From: Candidatus Acidiferrum typicum
GTDB lineage: Bacteria; Acidobacteriota; Terriglobia; Acidiferrales; UBA7541
NCBI GenBank assembly: GCA_025463055.1
Contig: JAOAPV010000089.1
Location: 1-36,006, forward strand
Length of the DNA: 36,006 nt
Direction: 5' to 3'
Below the pieces are notes generated by a model that was not told the DNA's origin, ran no database searches, and was given only the letters and a program-made list of their open reading frames with translations. The position numbers and the translations under genes are program-made. Below, piece by piece: positions 7,604 through 19,033 of the stretch (the stretch's first letter is position 1; each line of letters begins with the position of its first letter).

Positions 7604-8515
7604 TCAACCTGCCGACTCGCCGAGCGCTTCACGCAGATCTCCCTTTGTTTCGCGCAGCTTCTTTTTCCCTTCTTGCAAGCTCGCGCGCAGTTTCAGCATC
7701 ACTAAAGCAAGACGCAAATTGTGTCCCGACTGACGCAGGGCGTGTTCGGACGCAGACACACTCTTGCCGCTAGCTTCGGCCAGGATGCGCACAATTCGGT
7801 CCGAAACTTTTTGATTTGAAGGTCTTACGTCGATCATCAAATTCTCATAAACATGTCCCAGTCGCGCCATCGCAGCGGTAGAGAGCATGTTCAGAACCAT
7901 CTTCTGTGCTGTGCCGGCCTTCAGGCGGGTTGAGCCAGTCAACACTTCGGGCCCGACTTTAGGGGCGATCAGAATTTTGGCTAGCCGCGCCACAGGAGTC
8001 TGTGGGTTCACCGTGATGGCCACAGTTGTTGCACCATTTCTACCTGCATATTTGAGGGCTGATAGCACGTAGGGCGTTGTGCCACTTGCGGTGATCCCAA
8101 CCACGACATCGCGGCGAGTCAGCTTGTTTGCGCGCAAATCGCGCTCACCATTTGCCCGCGAATCCTCTGCGCCTTCCACTGCGCCGGTCACTGCGGGTCT
8201 GCCGCCCGCAATCAATGCTTGCACAAGTCTTGGCGAAGTCCCAAAAGTCGGCGGGCATTCCGCGGCATCCAGCACAGCCATACGACCGCTCGAGCCTGCC
8301 CCGACATAGATCAGCCGCCCTCCGCTACCAATGCTGTTCACGATTGCGTCAACCGCGCGCGCTATGGCGGGAAGCTCGCGGGCGACCGCGGCCGCGACCT
8401 TGCGATCTTCGCGATTCATCAGTCGCACGATTTCTTTCGCAGTCATGCGATCAAGGTTTTTCGACGAGGCGTTGCGATGTTCCGTGCGCCTGTGCTCTTT
8501 TGGCCGGGAGGGCAT
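7604..8515 (-). CDS. murQ: N-acetylmuramic acid 6-phosphate etherase
   Basis: Cleaves the D-lactyl ether of MurNAc-6-phosphate to give GlcNAc-6-phosphate, a cytosolic step of wall recycling. The 303-residue protein carries the MurQ signature throughout: TEHRNASSKNLD, GGRLIYVGAGSSGRMAVLDA (SIS sugar-phosphate site), ECPPTFG, ALIAGGRPAVTGAVEGAEDS, ITASGTTPYVLSAL and GPEVLTGSTRLKAGTAQKMV. Glu86 and Glu117 match the acid/base glutamates of E. coli MurQ by position. The Ser/Arg-rich first ten residues are an ordinary extension, and no clear ribosome binding site precedes ATG 8515. It is divergent from the kinase-RapZ gene and upstream of murA. Confidence 0.96.
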   Translation of the reverse strand: MPSRPKEHRRTEHRNASSKNLDRMTAKEIVRLMNREDRKVAAAVARELPAIARAVDAIVNSIGSGGRLIYVGAGSSGRMAVLDAAECPPTFGTSPRLVQALIAGGRPAVTGAVEGAEDSRANGERDLRANKLTRRDVVVGITASGTTPYVLSALKYAGRNGATTVAITVNPQTPVARLAKILIAPKVGPEVLTGSTRLKAGTAQKMVLNMLSTAAMARLGHVYENLMIDVRPSNQKVSDRIVRILAEASGKSVSASEHALRQSGHNLRLALVMLKLRASLQEGKKKLRETKGDLREALGESAG

Positions 8516-8709
8516 CTGAGAATTATAACTGTGCGCTGAAGCTCACCGGAAATGCACCAACGAAACAGGACCGACCCTGCCAACAAGTCGTTAACAGCTT
8601 TTTGAACCGTCATGCCTCCAATTAATGGGGCCTGACCGAGAATCAGCTATCATGGAAAACGGTCTCGATACGGTGATTGTGCACAGCCGCACAGACGGAA
8701 ATTAGGTCG

Positions 8710-10137
8710 ATGGACGTTCTCAACAGGCTTTTTGAGGAGCATTTTCGCTCGCCCGTGAAGCGGGTTCAGCCGCTGCAGGGAGATCTCGGCGGCTCTGGCC
8801 GTAAGATTATCCGGCTTTCCAATGAAAAGGCCAGGGCGATCGGAGTTCTCTACGGCGTGCGCGAAGAGAACGTGGCTTTCCTGGAGTTTTCAAAACATTT
8901 TCGCCGGCACCGGCTGCCGGTACCTGAAATTTATGGTGAAGACTTGGACCAGGGCGCTTATCTCGAAGAGGACCTTGGGGACACGACTCTTTTCGAGTTT
9001 CTCTCGAAAAATCGCAAGGGCGAGAATATCGCCGCGCCGGTGGTGGAAGCCTACCGCAAATCTGTGGAAGTGTTGCCGCGATTTCAGGCAGATGCCGGCT
9101 GCGACTTGAATTATGAGGTGTGCTATCCGATCGGGAGCTTCGACCGGCAGTCCATCGCGTGGGACCTGAACTACTTCAAATATTATTTTCTTCGGCTTGC
9201 GGGCATTCCTTTCAACGAACAGGCGCTTGAAAACGATTTTGGCCGATTGGCGGATTTTCTGCTAAGCGCACCTCGCGATTATTTCCTGTATCGGGATTTT
9301 CAATCGCGCAACATTCTGCTGCGCGACGGCGAGCCGTTTTTTGTGGATTATCAGGGCGGCCGCAAAGGCGCACTGCAATACGATATTGCTTCTCTTTTGT
9401 ACGATGCCAAGGCGGACCTGCCCCCGGAACTGCGCCAGGAGTTGCTCGATCATTATCTCGACGCGCTTGGCCGGTACATAAAGGTCGATCGCGAAGCTTT
9501 CATGCGCCACTACTACGCTTATGTTTATGTGCGCATCATGCAGGCCTTGGGCGCGTATGGATTTCGCGGATTTTACGAGCGCAAGGCGCATTTTCTGCAA
9601 AGCGTGCCGTACGCGCTGAAAAACCTGCGTTGGCTGTTGCACCATGTCGAGCTGCCGATTGAGTTGCCGACATTGATGGGCGCGTTCCGTAGCATGCTCG
9701 CGTCGGAGAAATTGCAGGGATTGGCGAGCGAAGCGGACAACCTGGTGGTGCGGATTTTCAGCTTTTCATTTCACGTTGGATTGCCGAAGGACGAGAGCGG
9801 GAATGGCGGTGGATTTGTTTTCGATGGGCGGAGCTTGCCGAATCCGGGCCGCGAAGAGCGATTCAAAGCGCTGACCGGCAAAGATGCACCGGTGATCGAT
9901 TACCTGAATCAGCAGGAGAGCGTGCATCAGTTTCTCGCCAGCGTGATGTCGCTGGTGGATGCCAGCGTCGGAAGTTACAAGGAACGGGGATTCAAGAATT
10001 TGATGGTCTCGTTCGGATGCACTGGCGGACAGCATCGATCTGTGTTCTTGGCGGAGCAGTTGGCCAAGCGACTGCGCGCGAAAAATGGAGTTGAGGTCGC
10101 GGTGCGGCATCTAGAGTTGGAGAAAATCGGCAAATGA
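8710..10137 (+). CDS. AmgK-like sugar kinase fused to a RapZ C-terminal domain
   Basis: A 475-residue two-domain protein. Residues 1 to about 330 form an aminoglycoside-phosphotransferase-type kinase with a catalytic loop FLYRDFQSRNILL (Asp196, Asn201) and a metal-binding DYQGG (213-217); Tyr stands where the loop usually has His or Gly. Residues about 344-472 are a RapZ C-terminal domain: VRIFSFSFHVGLP, FVFDGRSLPNP, LTGKDAPVIDYL and VSFGCTGGQHRSVFLAEQLA. AmgK phosphorylates MurNAc/GlcNAc at C1. The RapZ C-terminal domain of E. coli binds sRNA and glucosamine-6-P. The P-loop N-domain of RapZ is absent and replaced by the kinase. ATG 8710 starts MDVLNRLFEEHF; an in-frame GTG at 8677 is possible. 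The MurU-like gene follows after 24 bases, which supports an AmgK role rather than antibiotic resistance. Confidence 0.85.
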   Translation: MDVLNRLFEEHFRSPVKRVQPLQGDLGGSGRKIIRLSNEKARAIGVLYGVREENVAFLEFSKHFRRHRLPVPEIYGEDLDQGAYLEEDLGDTTLFEFLSKNRKGENIAAPVVEAYRKSVEVLPRFQADAGCDLNYEVCYPIGSFDRQSIAWDLNYFKYYFLRLAGIPFNEQALENDFGRLADFLLSAPRDYFLYRDFQSRNILLRDGEPFFVDYQGGRKGALQYDIASLLYDAKADLPPELRQELLDHYLDALGRYIKVDREAFMRHYYAYVYVRIMQALGAYGFRGFYERKAHFLQSVPYALKNLRWLLHHVELPIELPTLMGAFRSMLASEKLQGLASEADNLVVRIFSFSFHVGLPKDESGNGGGFVFDGRSLPNPGREERFKALTGKDAPVIDYLNQQESVHQFLASVMSLVDASVGSYKERGFKNLMVSFGCTGGQHRSVFLAEQLAKRLRAKNGVEVAVRHLELEKIGK

Positions 10138-10161: not shown

Positions 10162-10908
10162 ATGAAAGCCATGATTCTGGCCGCCGGGCTGGGCACGCGC
10201 TTGCGCCCACTGACGGACGGGCGCCCGAAAGCCTTAGTCGAGATCGCGGGCCGCACGCTGCTAGAGATTACACTCGCGCGATTGCGCTCGTTCGATGTTC
10301 GCGAGGTGATTGTCAACGTGCACCATTTTGCGGATCAAATCGTCCAGTATCTTAAAGCGAACACGAATTTCGGGATGCGCATCGAAATTTCGCGCGAAGA
10401 GATTTTGCTTGATACAGGCGGCGGCATGAAGAAGGCCGCTTGGTTTTTTCTCGAGGATGCTGCCAGCAGAGATGAGCCGTTTATCCTGCACAATGTGGAT
10501 GTCATCAGCACCATCGATTTGGTAAAGATGGTCGAAGCCCACGAAGCGAGCGATGCGTTAGCCACTCTCGCGGTGCAGAGGCGCGAAAGCAGCCGCCAAC
10601 TCCTTTTCGACCGGCATCTGCAACTCTGCGGTCGCCGCGCCGGCCGCGATCACGAACCCGAAATTGTGCGCCAATCGCCGCGTCTGGAGCCGCTAGCCTT
10701 TTCCGGCATCCACGTCATCTCTCCGCGCCTTCTCCCCATGCTCACGGAGGAGGGCGTCTTTTCCATCATCGCGCCATACCTGCGCCTTGCGGGGCAAGGT
10801 GAGCAAATCCTGGGCTTCCGCGCGGACGAATACTACTGGCGCGATTTAGGGAAGCCCGCCGACCTACTGCAAGCTTCGCGGGACTTAGAGCAAGGAATTC
10901 TCGTATAG
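10162..10908 (+). CDS. MurU-like sugar-1-phosphate nucleotidyltransferase
   Basis: Predicted to join a nucleotide to a sugar 1-phosphate; next to an AmgK-like kinase the best guess is N-acetylmuramate-1-P uridylyltransferase, giving UDP-MurNAc and bypassing MurA/MurB. The 248-residue protein has the Rossmann-like signature MILAAGLGTRLRPLT-DGRPKAL (residues 4-24), EVIVNVHHFADQI, a LDTGGGMKKA segment, HNVDVIST at the metal-binding Asp, and a late FRADEYYWRDLGKPADLL. Length and C-terminus fit MurU better than the longer glucose-1-P or GlmU enzymes. The start ATG 10162 is the first that gives the complete glycine motif. UDP versus other nucleotide, and MurNAc versus another sugar, cannot be settled from sequence. 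Confidence 0.82.
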   Translation: MKAMILAAGLGTRLRPLTDGRPKALVEIAGRTLLEITLARLRSFDVREVIVNVHHFADQIVQYLKANTNFGMRIEISREEILLDTGGGMKKAAWFFLEDAASRDEPFILHNVDVISTIDLVKMVEAHEASDALATLAVQRRESSRQLLFDRHLQLCGRRAGRDHEPEIVRQSPRLEPLAFSGIHVISPRLLPMLTEEGVFSIIAPYLRLAGQGEQILGFRADEYYWRDLGKPADLLQASRDLEQGILV

Positions 10909-10927: not shown

Positions 10928-11527
10928 ATGAAAGACACGATTCTGACGGTTGTAGCCATCCTGTCCTTGACGGTCCTTTTGCCCCTAGTTCTTTTGCGGA
11001 TCAGGGATCGGTTTCGGGCCCGAAGGCGCGGATTCGACGAACAAATCCCCGCTCATATTGTTGCCTATCGCGAACGCCTTCTTCGCCCTGATCCGGCCAC
11101 TGTTGAGAAGCATATCGGCAGTCTGCTATCCGAGCGGCTCATCCGAATGTATGAAGGGCAAGAAGCAATACTTAGCAGAAATATTGAACTCCAATCATCG
11201 GGGCTGAGTCGGAAAGCACGCGGCAGAAGAATTGAAAGATTCCTCCCACTCGATATCGAGAGCCAACATGAGACGTGTGACTTGCAGGAGGCAGGCTGGG
11301 GACGAGGCTTTTGTTTTGCCGCGGACGGCGCGGGTAATTTCTATTGGCAGCCTGTTAGTGCCGCGCGCCAGCTCGATGCCCCAGTCTTTTTCGCTTGTCA
11401 CGATCCGTGGGGGAACGAAAAGGTAGCGGACAGCCTTGAAGAGTTCCTTTCGTGGCCTCGCATACCGTACAACGGGCGAACGAGAAGCAATTTATTTCGC
11501 TGGGGCGGCTGCGGTGGCGAATCCTAG
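10928..11527 (+). CDS. SMI1/KNR4 (SUKH)-like protein with N-terminal membrane anchor
   Basis: A 199-residue protein. Residues 4-24 form one transmembrane segment (TILTVVAILSLTVLLPLVLL), followed by the basic RIRDRFRARRRG, so the rest should face the cytosol. The C-terminal half has the SUKH pattern: IERFLPLDIES, RGFCFAADGAGNFYWQPV, DAPVFFACHDPWGNEKVADS and LEEFLSW. SUKH proteins are often immunity proteins of polymorphic toxins but also occur as general regulators. No toxin gene is adjacent; the nearest Rhs piece is about 6 kb away. It starts 19 bases after the MurU-like gene, so it is probably co-transcribed. Its last 36 bases overlap the end of the convergent NagZ-type gene. Confidence 0.72.
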   Translation: MKDTILTVVAILSLTVLLPLVLLRIRDRFRARRRGFDEQIPAHIVAYRERLLRPDPATVEKHIGSLLSERLIRMYEGQEAILSRNIELQSSGLSRKARGRRIERFLPLDIESQHETCDLQEAGWGRGFCFAADGAGNFYWQPVSAARQLDAPVFFACHDPWGNEKVADSLEEFLSWPRIPYNGRTRSNLFRWGGCGGES

Positions 11528-14461
11528 CGCTTGCATTACGGCATCATGGAAGGCGGGGCGAAGTTGCGCGATTTTTTGGTTTTCGCGGGTGGGGTGGACT
11601 CGATTGGTGAGTAGCACGACGAAGAGCTGGCGGTCGGGATCGATCCAGATCGACGTGCCGGTGAAGCCGGTGTGGCCGAAGGCGTGCGACGAAAAATAAT
11701 GGCCGCTGGAGCCGCCTTCGGTTGGCACTGCCCAGCCGAGAGTGCGCGTACCGCTCGAGAGTTGCTGCGGCGTAGTGAATTGCGTGATTGTCGCGCGGCG
11801 CAGGACACGATGGTGCGCGTAGGCGCCGCCGTTCAGCAGCATCTGGCAGAAGGCGGCGAGATCGGGGGCGGTGCTGAAGAGGCCGGCGTGACCGGAAACG
11901 CCGCCGATGGCGAAAGCGTTCTCATCGTGAACTTCGCCATGCACCAGGCGGTGCCGCAGGTTGTTGTCGATCTCCGTCGGCGCGATGCCGGGCCACAGTT
12001 TCTTTGGCGGGCGGAACATCGAGTCTTTCATGGCGAGCGGAGTGAAGATGTAGGTTTTTGCGAGGTCGTCGAGCGTGCGGCCGGTTAGGCGCTCGATGAT
12101 TTCCGCCATCAGGATGATGCCGAGATCGGAGTAGATTTCTTTTGTGCCGGGCTCGTATTCGAGCGGCTCGGCGAAAATTTTGGTGAGCGTGTCCTGCTTA
12201 TTTTTTGAGGTGCGCCAATATTCCTTGAACGCGGGCAGGCCCGACGTGTGCGTGAGCAAGTGGCGGACGGTGACCTGGTGACGCCACTCTTGCTGCGGGC
12301 CGGTGGTCCATTCGGGCAGATAGCGCTCGATGCGGGCATCGAGGTCTAGCGGAACAGCAAAGTCTCCTTCGGCGAGTTTGGCTACTAGCGTTGTGGTGGC
12401 GACTACTTTTGTGAGCGAGGCGATGTCGTACATCGTGTGCGTGTCTACAGCGGGCGAGTTCGCGGTGTAGCTCAGATTTCCGAACGCGTGCAGCGAAACT
12501 TTGCCGCGATAGCCGATGGCGACGGCGGCGCCGGGGAAGGCCTTGTCCGCGATGGCGCGCTCGATGACTTGGAATGCAGGTTGGAGCTGGGCTTCGCCGC
12601 GGACGTCCGCGGGCTGGAGCGTCATGGGATTTTCCGGCAGCTCGAGGCCGTAACCCAATTTCATGTCGACGCCGGGAATGGTCACGGGCAAATGCCCGCG
12701 GACAGGAATTTGGCCGAAGAGCGCGCGAGCGAGGGAAATTTGCGCAACATCGCTGATGCCGAATGCGGCGAGCCACGTTTGCGATTGTGGGAAACGCTCG
12801 ATCAAATAGGGGCTGCCGAGGCATAGCGTCACGACCGGCTTGCCGGTTTTGAAGAGTTGGTCGGCGAGCGCTGCCTGCTCCGCGGGGACGTCGACATTGC
12901 CTTTGCGATCGCTCACTCGAACGAAAAGCGCGAGTAGGGCGACGTCGTAGCCGTCGGCCGGAGGCAGCTTGAGCGTGTCGGCTTTGACGAATTTGGTATC
13001 GGCGCGCAGCGTGGTGAGCGAATCGAAGCGGGAGCGTAGTTCGCGCTCCAAATCTTCGCCGGGGTAGGGCTCGGGATCGGCGTAAAACGCGAGCAGTAGG
13101 GCGCGCGTGGGCTTGGTGGCGTCGAGCGGCAGGCGATGCGGTGTGTCGCGAAGCAGAGTTACGCCACGGTCGGAGATATCTTGCGCTTCGGCTTGCCAAG
13201 CGGTGCGGCCAAATTTCTGATTGATGGCATTGATGTCGACGAGGCGATTTTTGTCGAGGCCAAGTTTGGCTTTTGCCTGCAGGATGCGGCGCACGGAAGC
13301 ATCGAGGCGTTCGCGGGAAATGCGGCCGGATTTAACGGCGACTTGCAGGCCTTCAAAGGCGGCGTCGGGAACGGGCGGCATGAGCAAGGCATCCGCGCCG
13401 GCCTCGAATGCGCGGACGGCGGCTTCGCCGGGTGCGTAGCGAACGGTGATGCCACCCATGTCCATTGCGTCGGTAACGACGAGCCCTTCAAAGCGAAGCT
13501 CTTTGCGCAAGAGATCAGTGAGAATTTTGGACGACAAAGTTGCGGGCGTGTTCGGGTCGGGCTCTAGCGCGGGGACAGAAAGATGACCGGTCATGATGCT
13601 GCTGGCTCCGGCGGCGATTGCGGCGCGAAACGGAACTAGCTCGAGATGGTCGAGGCGGTCGCGATTGGCTTGTATGACCGGGAGGTCGATGTGCGAGTCG
13701 CTGGCTGTGTCTCCGTGGCCAGGAAAATGTTTTGCGGTGGCGAGCGCGCCATTTTCTTCGACGCCGCGGATGAATTCCTTTACGAATTCGGAGACGCGGG
13801 CAGGATCTTCGCCGAAGGAGCGCGTGTTGATTATCGGATTGCCGGGATTGTTGTTGACGTCGGCATCGGGCGCGTAGACCCACTGAATGCCGACGGCGCG
13901 AGCTTCGAGCGCGGTGACTTTGCCCATGGTGTAGGCGTCGCGGGGATTTCCGGCGGCGGCGAGAGCCATTGCGGTGGGAAAGGAAGTGCCCTCATCCAGG
14001 CGCATGGCGGCGCCGCGTTCAAAGTCTGCGCCAACGAGCAGCGGCAATTTTGATTTGGCTTGCAGTTGATTGGTGAGCACGGCGGTGGGATAGGCCTGGC
14101 TTTTTACGATGCCGAGCGGCGAGCCTTGTGTGATGTTAATGAAGCCGCCGACGTGGAGATCGTTAACACAATGCAGCATCTGTGCGTAGGCCGCGGCGTC
14201 GGTGGAGGTGAAACTGCCGTGATAGGTTGCGAAGAGAACCTGGCCGATCTTTTCGTCGACGCTCATTTTGCGCAGCGTGGACTCGACCCACTGCGATGCC
14301 GCGGGCGAGAGGCGGCGGGCCGTTTTCCCCGGAGCGGCCTTTTTTTCCGCGGCGGCGGGCTTGCTGACAGACGAGCGGCTTTGTGTTCGTGCGGTATGAG
14401 CCATAAGAAAAATGATTGCGGCGGGAATTACGAACAGAACGCCAAGGCGTCCTTTCCTCAA
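11492..14461 (-). CDS. Exported NagZ-type beta-N-acetylglucosaminidase fused to a beta-lactamase-fold domain
   Basis: A 989-residue exported protein. Residues 1-28 form a signal peptide. About 55-400 is a GH3 NagZ-like domain: GADFERG, the His loop KHFPGHGDTASDSH (244-257) and nucleophile Asp331 in VVTDAMDMGG. Residues 430-605 resemble the alpha/beta second domain of GH3. About 625-985 is a serine beta-lactamase/penicillin-binding fold with SLTK (Ser682, Lys685), YSD (777-779) and HTG (930-932). It should remove GlcNAc from wall fragments outside the cytoplasm, while the second domain could act on stem peptides or esters. The start is TTG 14461 with GGGGGAG eight bases upstream. Similar fusions are annotated in Bacteroidota. 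It is divergent from namZ. Confidence 0.92.
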   Translation of the reverse strand: MRKGRLGVLFVIPAAIIFLMAHTARTQSRSSVSKPAAAEKKAAPGKTARRLSPAASQWVESTLRKMSVDEKIGQVLFATYHGSFTSTDAAAYAQMLHCVNDLHVGGFINITQGSPLGIVKSQAYPTAVLTNQLQAKSKLPLLVGADFERGAAMRLDEGTSFPTAMALAAAGNPRDAYTMGKVTALEARAVGIQWVYAPDADVNNNPGNPIINTRSFGEDPARVSEFVKEFIRGVEENGALATAKHFPGHGDTASDSHIDLPVIQANRDRLDHLELVPFRAAIAAGASSIMTGHLSVPALEPDPNTPATLSSKILTDLLRKELRFEGLVVTDAMDMGGITVRYAPGEAAVRAFEAGADALLMPPVPDAAFEGLQVAVKSGRISRERLDASVRRILQAKAKLGLDKNRLVDINAINQKFGRTAWQAEAQDISDRGVTLLRDTPHRLPLDATKPTRALLLAFYADPEPYPGEDLERELRSRFDSLTTLRADTKFVKADTLKLPPADGYDVALLALFVRVSDRKGNVDVPAEQAALADQLFKTGKPVVTLCLGSPYLIERFPQSQTWLAAFGISDVAQISLARALFGQIPVRGHLPVTIPGVDMKLGYGLELPENPMTLQPADVRGEAQLQPAFQVIERAIADKAFPGAAVAIGYRGKVSLHAFGNLSYTANSPAVDTHTMYDIASLTKVVATTTLVAKLAEGDFAVPLDLDARIERYLPEWTTGPQQEWRHQVTVRHLLTHTSGLPAFKEYWRTSKNKQDTLTKIFAEPLEYEPGTKEIYSDLGIILMAEIIERLTGRTLDDLAKTYIFTPLAMKDSMFRPPKKLWPGIAPTEIDNNLRHRLVHGEVHDENAFAIGGVSGHAGLFSTAPDLAAFCQMLLNGGAYAHHRVLRRATITQFTTPQQLSSGTRTLGWAVPTEGGSSGHYFSSHAFGHTGFTGTSIWIDPDRQLFVVLLTNRVHPTRENQKIAQLRPAFHDAVMQALGFATAAAPAK

Positions 14462-14612: not shown

Positions 14613-15848
14613 ATGCGCATCGCAAGCTTGGCTATTGGCCTCCTTACCGTGGCGTTCTGTGCCGGACCTACGTTTGCTAGCAAACGCCATGGCAGCACTA
14701 AACATTCGGGTCGGCCAGGACGCGTGCAGACGGGGCTCGATATTTTAGAGGTGCAAAAATTTGCGCCGTTACGCAACAAACACGTCGGCCTCATCACGAA
14801 TCACACCGGACTTGATTCACAGGGCCGCAGTACCGCGGACCTGCTTTCGCATGCCGCGGGCGTGCATCTCGTGGCGCTGTTCAGTCCGGAGCATGGGCTT
14901 GCGGGGCGCAACGATGAAAAGGTTTCGTCGACTAAGGATGCCGCTACCGGGCTTCCGATCTTCAGTCTTTACGGAGAGAATCTCCGCCCTACGGACGAGA
15001 TGCTTCGCGGAATCGACACGCTTGTGTTCGATATTCAAGATGCTGGGGTGCGCTTCTATACGTATACGGCGACGATGGCTTACTGCATGGAGGAAGCGGC
15101 CAAACGCAAGATCGCTTTTTACGTGCTTGATCGGCCGAATCCAATAGGCGGCAACATCGTGGAGGGGCCGATGCTCGACGCCGACAAAACGAATTTCGTC
15201 GGCTACTTCCCTCTTCCGGTGCGCTACGGGCTTACCATCGGCGAACTGGCGCAATTTTTCAACTCGGAAAATCATATCAATTGCGACCTGCACGTAATCG
15301 CGATGAAGAATTGGCACCGGAACTATTTTTTTGAAAGCACCGGCGCGCGCTGGATTCCGCCTTCGCCCAATTTGCGGACGTTGAAGGGCGCGGTTTTGTA
15401 TCCGGGAATTGAGATTTTGCAGAACGCGGGCATTTCCGTGGGCCGCGGGACAGAGACACCCTTTGAGGAATTCGGTGCGCCGTGGATCAACGGGGAGGAA
15501 GTTGCGTCGGCGCTGAACGACCGGCATTTGGCGGGTTTGCGGTTTGCGAACCAGCCGTTTATTCCGGTGACTGGATTGTATTACGGGCAACGCTGCGGCG
15601 GGGTGGCAGTGCGGATTACGGACCGGCAAGCGGTGCGCGCGATGCGAATGGGGATGGAGATTGCGACCGTTCTCAAGAAATTGTATCCGGAGAAATTCGA
15701 TCCCGAAAAAATATCAGCGCTTGTCGGGAACGCGGAAACTATACGCGAGCTGCAAGCTGGCACGTCCCCAGAGAAGATCGTGGAAGGCTGGAATGGCGAC
15801 CTAAGTACGTTTGAATTGCTGCAAAAGAAGTATTTCCTCTATAAGTAG
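14613..15848 (+). CDS. namZ: Exo-beta-N-acetylmuramidase NamZ (DUF1343, GH171)
   Basis: Releases MurNAc from the non-reducing end of wall glycans; the founding member is B. subtilis YbbC/NamZ, encoded with murQ, nagZ and amiE. The 411-residue protein has a signal peptide (MRIASLAIGLLTVAFCAGPT then FAS) and the family motifs: LRNKHVGLITNHTGLD, LFSPEHGLAG, PIFSLYGENLRPT, LVFDIQDAGVRFYTYTATM, VLDRPNPIGG and GRGTETPFEEFGAPWI. Start ATG 14613 gives an ideal signal peptide though only a weak AGG precedes it. It is divergent from the exported NagZ-type gene, so the two complementary exo-glycosidases share one control region. Identity is secure; substrate follows from the family. Confidence 0.94.
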   Translation: MRIASLAIGLLTVAFCAGPTFASKRHGSTKHSGRPGRVQTGLDILEVQKFAPLRNKHVGLITNHTGLDSQGRSTADLLSHAAGVHLVALFSPEHGLAGRNDEKVSSTKDAATGLPIFSLYGENLRPTDEMLRGIDTLVFDIQDAGVRFYTYTATMAYCMEEAAKRKIAFYVLDRPNPIGGNIVEGPMLDADKTNFVGYFPLPVRYGLTIGELAQFFNSENHINCDLHVIAMKNWHRNYFFESTGARWIPPSPNLRTLKGAVLYPGIEILQNAGISVGRGTETPFEEFGAPWINGEEVASALNDRHLAGLRFANQPFIPVTGLYYGQRCGGVAVRITDRQAVRAMRMGMEIATVLKKLYPEKFDPEKISALVGNAETIRELQAGTSPEKIVEGWNGDLSTFELLQKKYFLYK

Positions 15849-17411: not shown

Positions 17412-17786
17412 TTACGTAGCAATGCTGAGATGGATCGTCAGTTCCGGAGGACCTTGCTTCCGAATGCGAACTCGAAGCTGGTACGGATTGATTCCAGGCG
17501 CTGACAGCCGGATGTAAAACAGCTTTCCAGCCGCAGGCTTCTCAAGCGAGAAATACCCGTGATCGTCGGTCTTTGCCGAAGCGATCACGGTTTGCCAGTC
17601 CGGACTACAGAGTTCAACCGTCACTCCTTTGGCCGGTTCATGGGCCGTGCCGACGTTCACATGGCCTGCGAGTGCTTGGCTGACAGACACCTTCTCTTGC
17701 ACGATAAGGGTCGCTTGTGCGTGCCCATAACCTGCAAAAAGTAGGCAGAAAACACCGAGGACGAGAAACAACCGTAACGATTTCAT
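17412..17786 (-). CDS. Exported small beta-sandwich protein coupled to the Rhs tip
   Basis: A 124-residue protein with a clear signal peptide (MKSLRLFLVLGVFCLLFAGY then GHAQA). The mature 100 residues look like a carboxypeptidase-regulatory/CnaB-type domain: GHVNVGTAHEPAKGVTVELC, a DDHGYFSLEKPAAGKLFYIR turn and a final beta strand LTIHLSIAT. Its ATG shares four bases (ATGA) with the Rhs-tip stop codon, so translation is probably coupled. That position is where immunity genes of Rhs toxins normally sit; an exported inhibitor is possible, but the fold is also common in unrelated secreted acidobacterial proteins. Function unknown. Confidence 0.75.
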   Translation of the reverse strand: MKSLRLFLVLGVFCLLFAGYGHAQATLIVQEKVSVSQALAGHVNVGTAHEPAKGVTVELCSPDWQTVIASAKTDDHGYFSLEKPAAGKLFYIRLSAPGINPYQLRVRIRKQGPPELTIHLSIAT

Positions 17787-19033
17787 TTCTTTATGATGAT
17801 CTTTCCCTGGGGATTTGGAGAGTTCGCTGGTCCTCCAGCACCGGTGTTGTATTCCTTGAGGTAGGGACGCTGATCTCTCAACCGCATTTCTCGTTGCAGG
17901 GCCGCATTGTGACCCCCTGCGTAGCTCCCGCCGTTTCCACCGTCAATCTTCTCGTAAGCCTCAGCAAGCTCGTGAAAAGCAACTGTCCATTCTGGAGATA
18001 CTTTCAGATTAGTGTTCGATCCTCGCGTCACGTTCGGATTGTTGAAATAGAGACCGACGATGTCACTGACGCCAGCCGGAGGATTGCCCCCTTTGGGTTG
18101 GTCGCCAAATGTCGGTAGGTTCGCAATGATGTAATCGATTTTGACGAGTCCCTTATCCGTCATAACCGTGGGCCCGACACTAAAGTCGTAGGTATTCTTG
18201 CTACCGACGGCATCCATAGAGAGTCGATTTGCAGCGTCTCCAGCGATTTGCTGCAAGTCTGCAAAACATTGCTTTTGTGAATCGCGATCGCCTGCGGATT
18301 GCAAGATTTCGCCTGTTGGATCGATATAACGCAACGGATTATTCGCGACATAAGCGTAAAGATTGAGCTGCTGGGGGTTTTGCAAGCGTTCTGTTGTGAT
18401 TACGACGGGGTCGGGCGACATGAACCGCCCCATTGAACTTCCGAAGTAGCGAGCGCCGAAGTAATCATTGCCTGATTCTGTGTCCCTTTCTTTGCCGGTG
18501 AATTTGAAATGAGAGGTTTCGTCGGACTGTATGACTCTCTCGCCGCCGAAGGGGTAGTAGTCGGAACGATTCCAGCCGCCGTCGCCGTCCCACTGCCAGT
18601 AGAAGCGCGTGCTTCCGAGGGGGTCGGTGAAGTACCAGGCGACTTCGCATGCGGCATTGAGATTGTTGTAGTTGCCCACGCGTTTGCCATTGAAGAAGAA
18701 GTAGAAAAACTGTTCGTAGCCATTGCTCAGGGCGCTTTCCATAAGAACGTCGCCGCTGGGGAGATACGAGTAAATAGTGCCGTTGGATTTCGTAACGCGG
18801 CGGCCGTCGCCGTCGTAGGTATAGGTCACTCCGCCAGTGGAGACGAGGTGGTTCTCCGCATCGTAGGTGTATGTGGTACCAGTGGGAGGGGCGGCGATGA
18901 GGTTGCCGGCAGCGTCGTAGGCGTAGCCGGATGCGGCGATCTGGTTCTTGGTGTTGACGGAGCCGGTGAAATTGAAGCCGCTTTCTTGCAAGCACCCAGT
19001 GTAGTTCGATGAGGAACCACGGGCTGAGGGCAT
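17783..19033 (-). CDS. Orphan Rhs tip with unfamiliar C-terminal domain
   Basis: A 416-residue C-terminal piece of an Rhs/YD-repeat protein. YD repeats appear at 38-110 (YAYDAAGNLIA, YTYDAENHLVS, YTYDGDGRRV). The Rhs core end covers 137-241: DPLGSTRFYW, YYPFGGERV, FTGKERDTESGNDYFGARYF, GRFMSPDP, NLYAYVANNPLRYIDPTGE. Residues 242-416 replace the usual variable toxin. They contain FHELAEAYEKIDGG (His354, Glu355, Glu358) and GGHNAALQRE (His375, Glu382), which resembles a metal site but is not a standard HExxH. The frame stays open only to a stop at 19094-19096 and lacks the large N-terminal shell and any signal, so this is a displaced or truncated tip. Start ATG 19033 is uncertain. Confidence 0.85.
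   Translation of the reverse strand: MPSARGSSSNYTGCLQESGFNFTGSVNTKNQIAASGYAYDAAGNLIAAPPTGTTYTYDAENHLVSTGGVTYTYDGDGRRVTKSNGTIYSYLPSGDVLMESALSNGYEQFFYFFFNGKRVGNYNNLNAACEVAWYFTDPLGSTRFYWQWDGDGGWNRSDYYPFGGERVIQSDETSHFKFTGKERDTESGNDYFGARYFGSSMGRFMSPDPVVITTERLQNPQQLNLYAYVANNPLRYIDPTGEILQSAGDRDSQKQCFADLQQIAGDAANRLSMDAVGSKNTYDFSVGPTVMTDKGLVKIDYIIANLPTFGDQPKGGNPPAGVSDIVGLYFNNPNVTRGSNTNLKVSPEWTVAFHELAEAYEKIDGGNGGSYAGGHNAALQREMRLRDQRPYLKEYNTGAGGPANSPNPQGKIIIKK

Follow-up and report, generated by a model that had tools for sequence, protein, structure and literature searches.

An AmgK-like kinase fused to the RapZ C-terminal domain: a probable sugar-phosphate module beside a MurU-like gene

The fused gene and its neighbours

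The window, i.e. the whole stretch of 36,006 nucleotides of Candidatus Acidiferrum typicum that was analysed (contig JAOAPV010000089.1), holds a gene in which an AmgK-like kinase of the APH type and the C-terminal domain of RapZ (RapZ_C) share a single frame (Table 1). Its translation gives 475 residues with no internal stop, and the frame is open already from a TTG at 8677. Two Pfam families match the product, the APH kinases (PF01636, residues 55-255, E 3.3e-10, 40.6 bits for a cut-off of 23.2) and the RapZ C-terminal domain (PF22740, residues 346-470, E 6.4e-35, 120.4 bits for a cut-off of 27), and a sequence search of the PDB brings up an APH-type kinase (3csv) as well as the E. coli RapZ entries 5o5s, 5o5o and 5o5q. 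The original prediction had seen here one frame joining an APH-type kinase to a full RapZ C-terminal domain; the matches in Pfam, NCBIfam and the PDB bear this out, and the three motifs on which it relied, YRDFQSRN, DYQGG and GCTGGQHRS, are all present. Prediction of the structure of both domains, which it had proposed as a check, agrees with it: the RapZ_C model takes the RapZ fold (Z 20.4, rmsd 1.5, with 123 residues aligned to the E. coli RapZ C-terminal domain, 5o5s), and the best Foldseek match of the kinase part is again 3csv (E 9.0e-14). The AF2 model of the entire protein, for which 80 fused rows were the input, reaches a mean pLDDT of 91.5 and a pTM of 0.70, with a weak linker at residues 340-342, so that the contact between the domains in the model is not reliable. 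In the fused protein of another genome (G257, L009 1495-3009) the stretch that links kinase and RapZ_C is longer by an insertion of some 18 residues, a hint that this linker is loose.

The kinase part, the end of which at residue 330 is our own choice of boundary, matches two NCBIfam kinase models alone, both for AmgK, at 56.3 and 47 bits, and misses both of their equivalog cut-offs (500 and 550 bits) by a wide margin. The residues that serve in APH kinases as catalytic Asp, Asn and metal Asp (D196, N201 and D213) are found in 53 of the 54 non-redundant rows, the remaining cells being a gap or an X; the last of the three opens D-Y-Q-G-G, which we take to be the DFG-like motif of the kinase. 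For the product of the gene that follows, the best NCBIfam model is MurU (NF045761), at 125.7 bits where the cut-off is 250, and the best PDB entry is 4y7t, followed by 8hhd, which is named MurU. With the equivalog cut-offs of AmgK and MurU so widely missed, a different sugar is possible as the substrate. The product of the kinase would be an amino-sugar 1-phosphate.

Table 1. Features of the locus, with positions in the window, strand and basis of assignment
Feature	Position	Strand	Basis
MurQ, MurNAc-6-phosphate etherase, divergent neighbour	7604..8515	-	TIGR00274, 366 bits, cut-off 302
Fused protein, AmgK-like APH kinase + RapZ C-terminal domain, 475 aa	8710..10137	+	Open frame, Pfam
Kinase part, residues 1-330	8710..9699	+	Matches to PF01636 (55-255) and to the AmgK models (56-310, 68-307)
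Catalytic loop Y-R-D-F-Q-S-R-N, residues 194-201	9289..9312	+	R195-N201 identical in 53/54 non-redundant rows, 1 gapped
D-Y-Q-G-G, residues 213-217	9346..9360	+	D213 in 53/54 non-redundant rows, one row X
RapZ C-terminal domain, residues 345-472	9742..10125	+	PF22740; domain model vs 5o5s
Hallmark insert of the fused subfamily, Gly-rich G-N-G-G-G, residues 364-368	9799..9813	+	Alignment
N-P-G-R, residues 378-381; G380 at the place of E. coli pocket His190	9841..9852	+	Alignment
Phosphate loop C-T-G-G-Q-H-R-S (C-x5-R-S), residues 437-444	10018..10041	+	Alignment of fused and canonical domains
MurU-like sugar-1-phosphate uridylyltransferase	10162..10908	+	Starts 24 bases past the fused gene; NCBIfam MurU best
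199-aa protein after the MurU-like gene	10928..11527	+	Sub-threshold SMI1/KNR4 (SUKH-1), 23.1 bits, cut-off 25.4
GH3 (NagZ-type) + beta-lactamase-family domain, one 989-aa protein	11492..14461	-	PF00933 E 7.8e-87, PF00144 E 1.3e-68
NamZ, exo-beta-N-acetylmuramidase	14613..15848	+	PF07075 E 1.3e-84, PF20732 E 3.1e-40

The MurU-like and MurQ genes that had been predicted as neighbours of the fusion are thus both confirmed by their family matches. An EPSP synthase-family protein, presumably of the MurA type, is encoded nearby on the strand opposite to that of the fused gene. Further along, at 17783-19033 on the minus strand, lies a 416-residue RHS repeat-associated core domain protein that scores above the TIGR03696 cut-off.

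It is the MurU-like gene that accompanies the fusion. Among 80 loci, three of which end too soon, it stands 3' of the fused gene, in the same orientation, in 70 of the 77 that leave room for it, and in 27 of these 70 its listed start precedes the end of the fused gene by 3 bases; the seven loci that lack it next to the fusion are all titled Bacteroidota. When the neighbours were clustered, over 79 loci of which 53 have at least 5 kb downstream, the MurU-like family came out as the sole widely shared one, the next cluster being present at 8/79 loci. MurQ together with MurA occurs near the fusion at three of the 80 loci only (L034, L035 and L043; several contigs end early), a NagZ-type protein is strong in L034 and L035 and weak in L041 (E 1e-12, 7 kb off), and NamZ is found in L035. 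A general link of the fusion with MurQ, NagZ and NamZ was therefore rejected, and the peptidoglycan setting of the window is a local one.

An APH-type sugar kinase that adjoins a MurU-like uridylyltransferase is also what we see in the AmgK-MurU pair of Pseudomonas and Caulobacter, from which the fused family differs in that its kinase has, or precedes, a RapZ_C domain, in that the MurU-like gene comes after the kinase, and in that the NCBIfam cut-offs are unmet. AmgK and MurU have been treated in Tannerella forsythia as well (PMC7670621). Of the best 24 unfused loci of Acidobacteriota (L010-L033), 21 have a MurU-like gene next to the AmgK-like kinase, which it precedes in 19 and from which it diverges in 2; the usual order there is thus MurU-like gene first, unlike that of the fused family, where it follows.

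Distribution, split versions and relation to RapZ

Within the 297 genomes of the phylum of the window, the full-length fusion occurs in at least six (G000, G073, G084, G121, G171 and G257), that of the window being one of them and the other five belonging to the same class. AmgK-like kinases without RapZ_C are the rule in this set, and the separate ones listed in the phylum are at most 37% identical to the window protein. A scan of the GTDB species genomes, using two patterns that both sit in the kinase part, brought at least 578 confirmed relatives, of which we examined the best 80, i.e. those most like the window protein. Their titles, which are those of the MAG records and were not re-classified, name nine phylum-level groups, Acidobacteriota, Calditrichota, KSB1, Deferribacteres, Elusimicrobia, Neomarinimicrobiota, Bacteroidota, Ignavibacteriales and Opitutia, some giving no group. 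Over the full length of the 80-row alignment, identity to the window protein is 58-85% for those titled Acidobacteriota and 50-59% for the others. A recent fusion private to the genome or to the phylum was consequently rejected, fused relatives being found far beyond Acidobacteriota, and chance or artefact is ruled out by the Pfam matches, the survey of the phylum and the distant fused relatives. The survey of kinase-RapZ fusions and their neighbours that the original prediction had suggested has thus given a positive answer, in its phylum and in many groups beyond, with the MurU-like gene as a recurrent partner. The fusion of kinase and RapZ_C is real, widespread and conserved, while as an instance of domain shuffling it is ordinary.

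Fusion is not the only state in which these parts are met. Among 247 genomes of Bacteroidota, 28 have a kinase of the fused-protein family and another 53 one that is AmgK-like but distant, a division that we placed at the gap between E 1.5e-37 and E 1.1e-27. Three of these genomes (G534, G336 and G419) carry, as consecutive genes, a kinase of 338-343 residues, a RapZ_C standing alone with 135 residues and a MurU-like protein of 237 residues. A fourth (G504) has the kinase and a 133-residue RapZ_C on separate contigs, and in a fifth (G333) the kinase adjoins a MurU-like gene and no RapZ_C of the family was matched. PF22740 was matched in both of the two stand-alone proteins that were scanned, and in all four the phosphate loop is retained along with the GNGGG insert and the NPG[RK] motif. 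The three-gene split versions indicate that RapZ_C is a partner of the kinase and MurU-like pair for which covalent joining is not required; the seven Bacteroidota loci without a MurU-like neighbour, and G333 without RapZ_C, tell us in turn that the parts are not strictly tied.

How, then, does the fused domain relate to RapZ itself? Elsewhere in the genome of the window, on contig C117, a frame of 298 codons also matches RapZ_C (164.6 bits) and is canonical by comparison with E. coli RapZ. In the 28 genomes that were reached through relatives, ten combine the fused protein with at least one further RapZ_C frame, nine of the ten being titled Acidobacteriota or Elusimicrobia; each of the other 18 shows one RapZ_C match only, and the frame that holds it counts 476 codons or more, hence is fusion-like in length. 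A tree of 67 RapZ_C rows (53 fused ones, after thinning of close relatives, and 14 canonical ones, E. coli being present twice) places fused and canonical domains on opposite sides of one branch with a support of 100/100. The RapZ model NF003828 covers the fused protein over its positions 152-276 of 278 only, at 113.8 bits for a cut-off of 244, and the P-loop N-domain is absent. The original prediction had the kinase replace this N-domain, as though a RapZ had exchanged one half for another: this has to be given up, because a separate RapZ is kept in the genome, because the fused domains form a clade of their own, and because RapZ_C also exists as its own gene. What the fused protein shares with RapZ/YvcJ of E. 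coli and B. subtilis is the C-terminal fold and the C-T-G-G-x-H-R-S loop; it differs from them by the missing P-loop N-domain, the replacement of His190 by Gly, the G-x-G-G-G insert, the loss of several RNA contacts and its place in a separate clade.

A kept phosphate loop in a remodelled pocket

For the comparison of individual positions, 85 distinct fused proteins were collected, that of the window included, from which two that lack the loop were dropped (L069, cut by a contig end, and L076, the frame of which leaves the RapZ_C domain), so that 83 remain; the canonical set is small, with 13 domains from Acidobacteriota, Elusimicrobiota, G307 (two rows) and E. coli. In the phosphate loop, C437, T438, G439, G440, H442, R443 and S444, corresponding to E. 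coli 247-250 and 252-254, are each found in 83/83 fused and 13/13 canonical domains, the fifth letter of the loop being variable. After removal of redundancy at 80% identity, C437 and R443 are kept in 54/54 fused domains. Outside the loop, D372 and H467 are likewise invariant across fused and canonical domains. Of the 32 best-kept positions of RapZ_C in the 54 non-redundant rows, 21 fall within 361-381 and 435-445.

The pocket of E. coli RapZ has been described as made of H190, T248, G249, H252 and R253, with C247 near (PMC5737377, PMC9841335), and it was found occupied by sulfate or malonate (PMC5737377). The C-terminal domain is reported to bind GlcN6P with a KD of 10 nM (PMC7073468). The changes H190A, G249W, R253A, C247A and C247S are each reported to abolish the activity of RapZ (PMC5737377, PMC9841335); the authors had not expected C247S to be inactive, and they weighed a catalytic part for the SH group (PMC9841335). 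Four of the five lining residues (T248, G249, H252, R253), together with the adjacent C247, are kept in 83/83 fused domains. The fifth is not: at the position of His190 there is Gly in 83/83 fused domains, while the 13 canonical ones have His (9), Tyr (3) or Asn (1), and the residue that follows this Gly is Arg in 77 and Lys in 6 of the 83. The glycines of the insert, G364, G366, G367 and G368, are present in 83/83 fused domains, and the five G-x-G-G-G columns are gapped in 13/13 canonical ones. In our reading, the phosphate grip would be unchanged and the sugar side remodelled; the additional Arg beside G380 could suit a carboxylate, for example that of the lactyl group of MurNAc. With His190 always changed to Gly, GlcN6P is not simply transferable as the ligand and that of E. 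coli may not apply. The original idea that recycling and amino-sugar sensing sit in one protein stands accordingly in part: the salvage-type kinase, the pocket of an amino-sugar-phosphate type and the MurU-like operon speak for it, but GlcN6P as the substance that is sensed cannot simply be assumed. An alignment with the ligand residues of E. coli RapZ, which had been named as a possible refutation, is similarly divided between the four that are kept and the one that never is.

The RNA-contact positions have fared less well. Basic contacts of E. coli RapZ have been placed at K170, R184, K194, R196, R211, R238, K251, K270, K281, R282 and K283 (PMC9841335, PMC7073468), and the domain of the window has Lys or Arg at four of these eleven (R184, K194, R196, K281). 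Position 238 is Phe in 83/83 fused domains and Lys or Arg in 13/13 canonical ones; position 170 is His (46), Lys (30), Arg (6) or Gln (1) in the fused set and Lys or Arg throughout the canonical one; position 251 is Gln (72), Arg (10) or Leu (1) in the former and Gln (6), Arg (5) or Lys (2) in the latter. The basic tail is not kept in fused domains, and it is gapped at 282 in 10/13 canonical ones, where most of the tail is missing as well. The loss at 251 and that of the tail are therefore not special to the fusion, as canonical domains from non-enteric bacteria share part of it. Net charge of RapZ_C has a median of +1 among 54 non-redundant fused domains (range -3 to +11), with +4 to +10 for the 13 canonical ones, and the two ranges overlap. 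An Rfam scan of the window returned no family at or above threshold. The original prediction had added that regulation might act perhaps through RNA: seven contacts out of eleven that are no longer basic, the invariant Phe at 238, the lower charge and the empty Rfam scan make RNA binding by the fused domain unlikely.

Sensing, hydrolysis and other roles for the domain

We consider it probable, judging from family matches and conserved positions, that the fused protein is a salvage kinase coupled to a sugar-phosphate module, with no part for RNA. The AmgK-type kinase would make the 1-phosphate of MurNAc or GlcNAc, and the MurU-like uridylyltransferase of the next gene would then return these cell-wall sugars to the UDP-sugar pool. 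The C-x5-R-S loop of RapZ_C would meanwhile grip the phosphate of an amino-sugar phosphate belonging to the same pathway, and binding of this ligand, possibly accompanied by slow turnover, would set the flow through the kinase towards UDP-MurNAc and UDP-GlcNAc, in the way RapZ senses GlcN6P, and without any action on RNA. This specific form, where the pocket senses an amino-sugar phosphate and tunes the kinase, is a tentative proposal, its substrate, its ligand and the direction of control all being presumed. It has a weakness: a pocket that only binds leaves the never-varying cysteine unexplained.

It is precisely this cysteine that invites an enzymatic alternative. The pattern C-x2-G-x2-R-S is the loop signature of the PTP/DSP phosphatases, and the C-x5-R-S loop, found in 83/83 fused domains, follows a strand and precedes a helix in the structure models, as in those phosphatases. 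RapZ_C could then be a cysteine-dependent phosphatase that takes the 6-phosphate off MurNAc-6P or GlcNAc-6P, after which the kinase would add the 1-phosphate and the MurU-like enzyme would make the UDP-sugar; C437 would attack, R443 and the loop amides would bind the phosphate, and D372 and H467, as invariant as the Cys and the Arg in both fused and canonical domains, might provide acid and base. A cysteine that is always kept, together with the inactive C247S, favours chemistry, and the existence, in four genomes, of a free-standing RapZ_C of 133-135 residues is in keeping with an enzyme. A 6-phosphatase also finds support in AnmK, the enzyme that makes MurNAc-6P: 33 of the 34 fused genomes chosen for this search have it above cut-off, although in two of the 33 only fragments at the ends of contigs represent it. 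The homology of the RapZ loop to phosphatase loops has indeed been noted by Khan and Gorke, who suggested hydrolysis of GlcN6P (PMC7199280); the likeness, already published, stays at the level of the loop, however, for no overall fold or sequence match to the PTP/DSP family appeared among the matches listed: there was no PTP-fold chain among the 50 rows of either of two listings (the second being Foldseek's own list) and no PTP sequence in the PDB profile search. No general acid has been identified either. It also tells against a 6-phosphatase that AnmK, in Bacteroidota, is present in 18 of the 28 genomes with a kinase of the fused family, hence rarer than in those without any such kinase (153/166), and that MurQ, a competitor for MurNAc-6P, is above cut-off in 22 of the 34 fused genomes and just below it in five more. 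Over the same 247 Bacteroidota genomes, AnmK (E up to 1e-10) is found in 0/53 of those with a distant separate AmgK-like kinase, as against 153/166 of those with neither kind.

A phosphatase role would reproduce the three steps of the MupP-AmgK-MurU route, with the difference that MupP is a HAD phosphatase (PMC5371407), of a family distinct from RapZ_C. The same work argued that MupP would be lacking in organisms with murQ, a point that, with MurQ in most fused genomes, also counts against a 6-phosphatase here. A search with NF009696 (MupP) at E 1e-30 found it in 0/34 fused genomes and equally in 0/14 controls, Caulobacter included, so that nothing follows on MupP. In the genome of the window itself there are ten HAD_2 matches, and among the nine that were scanned (L151 was left out) none reaches the 359 bits required for MupP; the highest-scoring one (L145) has 107 bits with that model and is better matched by phosphoglycolate phosphatase models. 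On balance, hydrolysis by the fused domain seems to us unlikely, if worth keeping in mind, and about as doubtful is its extension, that RapZ_C is at root a small cysteine-dependent amino-sugar-phosphate phosphatase which, joined to the kinase or encoded between it and the uridylyltransferase, completes in many phyla a line of 6-phosphatase, 1-kinase and uridylyltransferase from sugar-6-phosphate to UDP-sugar, and that E. coli RapZ would be a regulator derived from this domain. We lean towards the sensor.

RapZ_C might also do no more than help the kinase to fold or to oligomerise, in keeping with the dimers formed by the E. coli domain (PMC5737377) and with the many AmgK-like kinases of the phylum that have no RapZ_C; this is improbable, as the best-kept positions cluster in the pocket loops and the stand-alone domains retain the whole loop, the insert and the NPG[RK] motif. 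That the domain binds a small RNA and couples the kinase to RNA control, as its homology to the domain with which E. coli RapZ binds GlmZ and a conserved loop that in E. coli also touches RNA phosphate might lead one to think, is very improbable indeed, given Phe at 238, Gln mostly at 251, the missing tail, the lower charge and the empty Rfam scan, and given that the RNA-binding part of RapZ has been described as confined to Enterobacteriaceae (PMC7073468).

As far as our searches reach, the architecture that unites the kinase and RapZ_C is unstudied, although databases probably carry automatic annotations of it: in the open-licence text of PMC we found neither a kinase-RapZ_C protein, nor a RapZ_C gene within an operon with MurU, nor a paper containing both 'AmgK' and 'RapZ'. 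The architecture is informative because it shows the RapZ pocket away from its RNA setting, in or beside the kinase of a probable sugar-salvage operon, in many phyla. The weaker RNA features of the fused domains and their salvage context suggest that a sugar phosphate, rather than RNA, may have been the older business of RapZ_C, and this bears on the role of the pocket of E. coli RapZ and of its essential Cys247. The 135-residue stand-alone RapZ_C of some Bacteroidota offers, in this respect, a small and simple subject for tests of binding and hydrolysis.
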